Source: Pararhizobium sp. YC-54 (GTDB taxonomy: Bacteria; Pseudomonadota; Alphaproteobacteria; Rhizobiales; Rhizobiaceae). Taken from it: 64,000 nt of DNA. The notes below the pieces were generated by a model. That model saw only the letters and a program-made list of their open reading frames with translations, did no database searches and was not told the DNA's origin. The translations under genes and the position numbers were made by a program. How positions within the stretch are numbered: the stretch's first letter is position 1; each line of letters begins with the position of its first letter. Positions 13,910 through 51,367 of this stretch are shown here, one piece after another. The DNA lies in the NCBI RefSeq assembly GCF_025847205.1, contig NZ_JAOYTH010000006.1, positions 124,001 through 188,000 of the forward strand, read 5' to 3'.

Positions 13910-14179
13910 TAGAGCCTCGGACGATAAATGAGGCGCATTCTGTTGTCTCAAATCGGCCGAACCACCAGAAGGACGGCGCGGAGCGATGCCGCCCCATCGG
14001 TCAAGCCGTCCGACGCAGGGGGCGGCCGATTTGAGACAACCCGGAGGGCCGGATGCTTTTTTGTCAGGAAGCGGGCTTTTGTCTCGAACGTACCGCCGGG
14101 TATGCCCTTCGACAAAAGCCCGCTTCCTGACAAAAAGTCCTTCCGGCAGAATGTGCCTCATTTATCGTCCGAGGCTCTA
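13910..14179 (-). repeat. 270-nt nested-palindrome element (copy A), three-way-junction architecture
   Basis: The outer arms 13910-13942 and 14147-14179 are 33-nt inverted repeats with one mismatch, beginning TAGAGC and ending CATTCTG on the inside. They enclose two independent hairpins. Hairpin 1 (13943-14039) has a perfect 17-bp base stem and a second GGACGGC/GCCGTCC stem. Hairpin 2 (14041-14146) has a perfect 26-bp stem, 14058-14083 with 14111-14136, below a small tip hairpin. Nearly all of the element is in a dyad. It lies between phoH and ybeY and would be transcribed with them. No open frame in it resembles a protein. It is homologous to copy B at 51066-51337. Confidence 0.9.
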
Positions 14180-48931: not shown

Positions 48932-49078
48932 CCCCCCTCTGTCACTCCGTGACATCTCCCCCTCAAGGGGGGAGATTACAGAGAGCCCGAATTCTACCGA
49001 CAGACGTTAGGTGAGCACAACGTTTGCGGCTCATCTCCCCCCTTGAGGGGGAGATGTCGGCGTCGCCGACAAAGGGGG
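48932..49078. repeat. Inverted pair of CATCTCCCCC-type rhizobial repeats
   Basis: The block 48932-48976 reappears inverted at 49031-49078, with shared cores CATCTCCCCCTCAAGG and CCTTGAGGGGGAGATG. About 54 unique bases lie between them. Each copy also holds its own small hairpin (TGTCGGCG/CGCCGACA in the right copy). This is a repeat type I recall as common in rhizobial intergenic regions. It sits between the convergent lactone-oxidase and grpE genes and may terminate both. Confidence 0.75.
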
Positions 49079-50919: not shown

Positions 50920-51367
50920 TCGAACGCGAAACCCATATTGTCGAAGTCAATTGAAATATAGTGATCCCGGCCCGGATAGCAAAAGGGAAATTGGCCGGAA
51001 AGCCCGCCGCATAGCGGCTTTTCACTCTTTTAGAGCAAATGATTTCCCTTCCCCCGAACTTAGGCTAGAGCGCTTCATCTTCAAACGGAACCATTCTGCC
51101 GGAAGGAATTTCGGCCAGAACCAAGGAAGATGGCGAAGAGCGTAGCCTAAGCTACGGTCGAGACGGCGGCCGCCGGTAATGGCCGAAATTCGTCCGGCCC
51201 GAAGGGTTGGCTGAAACCGGCCGTCCGCAGCGTCGGCCGGCTTGCGCGATGGTTCGGCATCGCTCTGCGCCGGCCTTCTTACGGCCCGGCCGGTTTGAGC
51301 CAACAGAATTGCTTCCGTTTGAAGATGAAACGCTCTAGAAGGCTGACAAACATCACAGGAGTTCATG
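50920..51367. other. Intergenic region between hrcA and rph
   Basis: 448 bases. The part next to hrcA (50920-51005) is AT-rich and probably holds its promoter. TTTAGAGCAAATGATTT at about 51029 resembles the start of other TAGAGC-type rhizobial repeats. Positions 51066-51337 are the large palindromic element copy B. The rph ribosome site CAGGAG ends the region. No gene is visible. Confidence 0.6.
51066..51337 (+). repeat. 272-nt nested-palindrome element (copy B), same architecture as copy A
   Basis: The outer inverted repeats 51066-51098 and 51304-51337 match at about 31 of 34 positions, beginning TAGAGCG and with ATTCTG at the inner end. They enclose hairpin X (51099-51197) and hairpin Y (51207-51303). 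Hairpin X has a CCGGA..GAATTTCGGCC stem and a CGTAGC/GCTACG tip. Hairpin Y has TTGGCTGAAACCGGCCG pairing with its partner at 16 of 17 positions and a GCGATG/CATCGC tip. Read on the minus strand the order is the same as in copy A, and hairpin Y aligns with A hairpin 1 without gaps (77 of 97). It lies between the divergent hrcA and rph genes, ending 27 bases before the rph start region. Confidence 0.9.

Follow-up and report, generated by a model that had tools for sequence, protein, structure and literature searches.

Two gene-less elements of about 270 bp, A and B, lie in the window, that is, in the whole 64-kb stretch of DNA that was analyzed. It is probable that both are non-autonomous MITE-like elements, some types of which would be moved in trans by IS630-family transposases, with a core that is kept as a folded strand. 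Insertion polymorphism, TA duplication, and inverted ends show that A and B are mobile, and the hairpin core is more widely shared than the ends, occurring with several end types among the loci that were read. The parts of both elements are given below with matches to R2, a model broader than the hairpin-1 model R1; the R2 training set includes hairpin 1 of A and of B, and hairpin 2 of B lies outside it.

13910 to 14179, plus strand: element A, whole, including both TA copies; inverted ends, site empty in 25 of 25 same-genus relatives
13910 to 13942, plus strand: left outer arm of A, terminal inverted repeat of the TAGAGC type, 97% complementary to 14147 to 14179
13941 to 14042, plus strand: hairpin 1 of A, the conserved structured motif in sense; R2 104.4 bits, E 2.8e-24
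14058 to 14136, plus strand: hairpin 2 of A, a perfect 26-bp stem, from the inverted repeat and the fold; no R2 match at E up to 5
14147 to 14179, plus strand: right outer arm of A, inverted repeat; its CTA at 14177 to 14179 provides the minus-strand PhoH gene with its TAG stop codon
51066 to 51337, minus strand: element B, whole, including both TA copies; inverted repeat, site empty in 22 of 24 relatives and holding an element or remnant in 2
51204 to 51305, minus strand: hairpin 1 of B, the motif in sense on the minus strand; R2 107.3 bits, E 5e-25
51097 to 51200, plus strand: hairpin 2 of B, the motif inverted, in sense on the plus strand; R2 45.5 bits, E 4.1e-9
51310 to 51338, minus strand: left outer arm of B, 93% complementary to 51065 to 51093
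51065 to 51093, minus strand: right outer arm of B, inverted repeat

Folded as single-stranded DNA, each element forms an outer stem of about 31 bp enclosing two side-by-side hairpins, at −116.2 kcal/mol for A (z −17.2 against shuffles) and −97.4 kcal/mol for B (z −12.4). Both have the ends TAGAGC...GCTCTA, and both are crossed by chance reading frames. By Pfam assignment, A sits between the PhoH and YbeY genes, which are both on the minus strand, its right end supplying the stop codon of the PhoH gene, and B sits between the divergent RNase PH and HrcA genes. The elements thus have the short, gene-less form with terminal inverted repeats by which MITEs are recognized (about 270 bp, with arms 90% alike within an element). 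Rfam 15 gave no match above the gathering score in the 64-kb window, and three sub-threshold matches fell in A and B (E 0.04 to 0.8). The window also holds, at 48951 to 49058, a perfect 26-bp inverted repeat, GACATCTCCCCCTCAAGGGGGGAGAT, with 56 bases between its arms, which looks like another repeat type.

The other marks of a MITE, mobility and target site duplication, are seen in the empty sites of relatives and in the duplicated TA. The A site was without insertion in every same-genus relative compared. The B site was filled in one relative (G006), held a remnant in another (G001), and was otherwise empty, the count being 24 because the contig of the 25th relative ends short of the site. 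At B, CTAG has become CTAGAGC...GCTCTAG, by duplication of TA or of CTAG, which are indistinguishable there. The left end of A carries one extra T relative to most relatives; an insertion-free relative (L113) carries this T as well, so that TA duplication fits the A site too. The genome contains eight full-length elements of about 270 bp, A and B included. Four are A-type, the other three being full length and 94 to 95% identical to A, and four are B-type, the other three being 81 to 86% identical to B. The A-type copies are therefore closer-knit than the B-type copies (L001 to L004 and L030 to L033), which suggests a later spread of the A type.

Partial copies of the element exist, and solo outer arms occur elsewhere in the genome. 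A pattern search for solo arms gave 6 matches and its control, the pattern read backwards, gave 66, so the search shows no enrichment. At one site (L281/L290), an element with hairpin 1 in G009 is represented in G010 by arms and a few core bases, which indicates that solos can arise by deletion. Two further loci, L286 and L299, have lost hairpin 2 in place and kept hairpin 1 and the arms, and a relative has the full element.

The outer arms differ strongly between elements. Both ends could be assigned for 45 of 60 matches, and in these 45 elements, from this and other genera, the arms form 14 clusters, being 90% alike within an element versus 48% between cluster representatives. Both arms would be expected to change together between families if a single transposon type supplied the two of them as its ends. 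The IS630 transposase domain (PF13358) was present at 30 examined loci, 7 of which are elements of about 1,050 bp with TA and GAGC- or GAGT-type ends. The best IS630 end matched the arms at 0.80 in L214 (to the B-type cluster) and in L215, at 0.77 in L234, at 0.76 in L217 and the identical-ended L233, and at 0.70 in L218, with none of 200 shuffles as good in each case; L235 reached 0.68, as did 6 of 200 shuffles. The opposite IS630 end was often no better than shuffles (39, 20, 18, and 27 of 200 as good for L214, L215, L218, and L235, respectively). The likeness extends to the B-type and some other arm clusters, and the A-type arms were the best match of none of the seven. From these ends we infer that IS630 transposases would move at least some TAGAGC-type elements. 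Two findings weaken this part of our preferred explanation: the A-type arms lack an IS630 counterpart in the set examined, and no clearly intact frame was found in the IS630 elements, the longest stop-free stretch being 201 to 278 amino acids. The only DDE_3 (IS630-type) match in the source genome, L230 (G000:C7:245480-245845), has internal stop codons and thus leaves no visible transposase source for the recent copies. For the TATACCAAG and TAGCCC ends described below, no transposase was found in the plasmids or the 30 IS630 loci.

The core reaches much further than any one set of arms. The models R1 and R2 gave matches in at least 103 of 394 family genomes (E 1e-3), and at E 1e-5 in at least 81 of 397 genomes sampled from the order and in at least 40 of 385 from the class; these are lower bounds, as at most 10 candidates were scored per genome, and the order and class samples each include the source genome and some nearer kin. 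At the family level, 40 of about 150 listed matches were read as loci. Where both ends were found among all the loci read, the element was mostly 260 to 300 bp long (sizes above 330 bp, arising from chance repeats in the flanks, were left out), and the same core stood behind TATACCAAG, TAGCCC..ATTTCTCAC, CTAGGCTG, and TAGACC ends. Because several end types share it, the core seems to have changed ends more than once. Four of the loci (L184, L193, L198, and L205) are 40 to 90 bp longer, with extra small palindromes between hairpins 1 and 2 in a nested mosaic.

Hairpin 2 carries the hairpin-1 motif in inverted and usually weaker form. On the strand opposite to hairpin 1, R2 recognizes it in B and not in A, and among 16 further loci drawn from the top matches and the source genome, 13 gave R2 matches to both hairpins. 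In the source genome, R2 gives 24 matches at E 1e-3, some of which are weaker antisense readings of one hairpin. A second family there comprises four elements with the motif in both hairpins (G000:C5:246614-246816, G000:C2:477466-477668, G000:C5:194286-194488, and G000:C5:108703-108905; L333 to L339 and L343), three of them with TACCAAG- or TATCAAGG-type ends.

A preliminary description of this DNA had proposed selection on structure from base changes between A and B, and its comparison was reproduced on recomputation. Positions 13943 to 14039 of A align without gaps to 51303 to 51207 of B (minus strand) at 77 of 97 positions, and three changes are compensated: T13946-A14036 is G-C in B, T13953-A14029 is C-G, and A13973-T14009 is C-G. 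In the second module, compared by eye, C14093-G14100 is G-C in B and so is G14090.T14103. The outer arms of A and B were likewise found to have little in common beyond their ends while staying 97% (A) and 93% (B) self-complementary. An uncompensated C.C reported in B is indeed present, the pair 13949/14033 being C-G in A and C.C in B, but it is not specific to B, as 21 of 33 homologues have C.C. When the 20 differences between A and B were placed at random, three or more compensated pairs arose in 98 of 20,000 trials, so that two copies alone are suggestive only and homologues are needed.

For hairpin 1, 33 of 60 sequences were retained below 93% identity and aligned by sequence alone. The covariation check on homologues proposed in the preliminary description was carried out on these by a test other than R-scape, and pairing was kept far above both controls. 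The 36 pairs were 93.9% paired and 34 had changed on both sides, with a covariation score of 0.487 versus 0.173 ± 0.010 for shuffles, which do not preserve relatedness (0 of 500 as high), and at most 0.098 for slid alignments. Hairpin 1 thus behaves as a structured element, with covariation above the controls. A further alignment set kept 26 of 39 sequences below 93% identity after 6 of 45 had been left out.

Single changes within the stem pairs were uneven between the two strands. Hairpin 1 had 62 G.T and 7 A.C cells, against shuffle means of 115 and 66; none of 1,000 shuffles reached this ratio, and 84 of 1,000 reached the difference. Counted as events on a tree, there were about 31 G.T versus 6 A.C changes (P = 4e-5), mainly in the inner stem (about 22 versus 3, P = 0.0002; lower stem, 9 versus 3, P = 0.15). 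In a wider set from this and other families, 6 of 80 matches were removed as overlapping antisense matches and 61 of the remaining 74 were kept below 85% identity. These 61 hairpins gave 112 G.T versus 33 A.C cells and about 37 versus 15 events (P = 0.003) in a model-fitted alignment, which may be tilted toward G.T. On its own sense strand, hairpin 2 had 34 G.T versus 19 A.C cells and about 14 versus 12 events (P = 0.85), and a strand bias in hairpin 2, present in the cell counts, is gone in the tree events. In the outer stem, a wobble asymmetry was rejected with 37 G.T versus 24 A.C (P = 0.12; 2 of 45 elements left out) and 29 versus 20 distinct mismatches per cluster (P = 0.25).

Some positions outside the modeled stems are nearly invariant in the 61 hairpins, namely, G28 and C74 in all 61, G38 in 60, and A64 in 58, a conservation that is partly circular because the matches were chosen by the model. 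Two loop positions covary beyond 1,000 permutations each: 30/72 is A.G (34 sequences) or C.A (20), and 39/63 is C.A (46) or A.G (9), the counts being of sequences and not of independent exchanges. One and the same A.G/C.A exchange is thus seen in both internal loops, consistent with sheared G.A-type pairs.

In light of the 34 covarying pairs out of 36 and the excess of G.T over A.C, hairpin 1 appears to be selected as one folded strand, either RNA or single-stranded DNA, with a putative function. The selection on structure claimed in the preliminary description is partly supported, by the covariation and wobble bias of hairpin 1; hairpin 2 has no firm strand bias. In the explanation that we prefer, A and B are non-autonomous transposable elements, about 270 bp long and without a gene. 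IS630-family transposases would mobilize them in trans, with different ends in each lineage; judging by the likeness of ends, this would apply to some arm types, those of B included and those of A not. The core would be kept as a working folded single strand, most likely a read-through RNA and otherwise single-stranded DNA. Because the motif usually occurs once in each direction, a sense copy would be made from either strand. Possible roles of the core are to attract a host protein or nuclease and to soften the effect of an insertion on the target transcript. Cores and ends would have been exchanged, and perhaps the transposase too, more than once. A bolder version, which we regard as possible if somewhat doubtful, is a class-wide selfish core, consisting of an inverted hairpin pair with two G.A-type loops, that is inherited as a unit, is carried by unrelated transposon end systems, and has a role as RNA or single-stranded DNA. 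If that were true, the structured strand, and not the transposase ends, would be the lasting identity of these elements and would have a direct role in their spread or tolerance.

The orientation of the elements relative to genes, which bears on the choice between RNA and DNA, was tallied over 55 loci, many of them unassigned. Co-directional loci had 5 hairpins in sense and 10 in antisense (5 of 15, P = 0.30), and inward-pointing genes came from the left (sense) in 18 cases and from the right in 28 (18 of 46 in sense, P = 0.18), so no bias toward sense read-through of hairpin 1 was seen. The lack of bias disfavors a simple read-through RNA role, though the inverted pair would give a sense copy either way. 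The lack of bias and the inverted hairpin pair would both suit a core that acts solely as single-stranded DNA, for example as a protein-bound hairpin by analogy with the REP sequences handled by RAYT enzymes, and G.T is milder than A.C in DNA also. Against such a role, the genome yielded no match to the Y1 transposase (PF01797), in a search whose control was positive in 5 of 14 genomes and by which RAYT/REP identity was rejected, and the TA duplication and IS630-like ends indicate a double-strand enzyme for movement. We regard a role solely as single-stranded DNA as unlikely, though it is the strongest competitor of the explanation preferred here.

The preliminary description had left the choice between a folded function and a mechanism that copies palindromes, and each has found support, the former from the wobble bias and loop covariation of hairpin 1 and the latter from two sets of loci. 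In L085, comparison with close relatives suggests that the apical stem has been rewritten as a perfect palindrome. L300 and L303, copies of one orthologous insertion found in G008 and G012, differ at 17 of 108 pairs: 6 are double changes that stay Watson-Crick, 6 are one-sided changes between Watson-Crick and G.T, and the 5 broken pairs all lie in hairpin 2. From the 23 changed bases, about 1.2 double changes would be expected, and the flanks differ at 9 of 98 positions. Half of the six double changes are mirrored, within 6 bp of the outer stem, and among the matches listed, G012 has one to element A and three to the R1 motif. This pattern fits selection in place, copying from arm to arm, or replacement by an unseen copy. 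The in-place comparison left out L302, which aligned badly, and L296/L313, which are different insertions. At site B, the copies in the source genome (G000) and in G006 keep identical outer-arm mismatches. Arm-to-arm copying probably also occurs.

Copying as the whole explanation, with the arms recopied in replication by quasipalindrome correction and the folding unselected, seems improbable to us. The mirrored changes, the rewritten stem of L085, and an outer stem with no significant wobble asymmetry speak for it, but the mismatch at position 11/98 has been kept (unpaired in 24 of 33 homologues and C.C in 21), and copying predicts neither the excess of G.T over A.C in hairpin 1 nor the A.G/C.A covariation of the loops. 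It is because of this wobble bias and the covariation in unpaired loops that we favor a folded single strand over copying alone. That these are ordinary decaying repeats, an old functionless palindrome alike through recent common descent, can hardly be right, since despite the partial and solo copies, the stems and loop letters are kept in diverged homologues of other genera and families, the size is mostly kept where both ends were found, and the covariation of hairpin 1 already contradicts it.

Several known repeats invite comparison. The Rhizobium-specific intergenic mosaic elements (RIME) and the A, B, and C palindromes of Sinorhizobium (Osteras 1995, as cited in PMC2573895 and PMC2873474) are like the core of elements A and B in being repeated, intergenic, and rhizobial. 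They are described as having no known function but a conserved primary sequence and a conserved secondary structure (PMC2573895), and some Sinorhizobium meliloti REP elements and repeats are transcribed (PMC2873474). In the available portions of those two papers, transposon ends, an inverted motif pair, and covariation go unmentioned for RIME and the palindromes, a comparison made by description and not by sequence. REP/BIME dimers share with A and B the inverted hairpin pairs within an outer palindrome and the intergenic position, and in A. variabilis and H. neapolitanus long palindromes enclose REP dimers; the available part of the same source states that the CGTC-tagged alphaproteobacterial REPs lack a dedicated transposase (PMC3733652). 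Unlike the hairpins described here, which are about 100 nucleotides long and set in TA-flanked terminal repeats, REPs are 20 to 40 bp long and CGTC stems are 8 to 9 bp (PMC3733652, in part). The Bru-RS repeats of Brucella, as far as the accessible text describes them, are palindromic and, at 103 to 105 bp (PMC2267715), about the size of one hairpin, and they are linked with a TA-duplicating insertion sequence, IS711, with the target YTAR (PMC2266754, likewise in part); compared by description and not by sequence, this kinship is a lead only.

In the literature covered on RIME, rhizobial palindromic repeats, Bru-RS, and MITEs, which included few subscription papers, we found no description of this core, and individual families may well have been named already. 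In build, A and B also resemble IS630-type MITEs, which are gene-less, with terminal repeats and TA duplication, and some of the ends resemble those of IS630 copies. Unlike those MITEs, A and B have as their middle a conserved double hairpin that stands behind several end types. Descriptions of bacterial MITEs usually center on the ends. Here, the middle is more widely shared than the ends, and its covariation, the one-strand wobble bias of hairpin 1, and the conserved loop letters are what would be expected for a functional RNA or a protein-read DNA hairpin. The core could place several palindromic repeats of rhizobia and alphaproteobacteria, whose function is unknown, in a common frame, and it allows a test of whether these repeats work as RNA, work as single-stranded DNA, or do not act at all.
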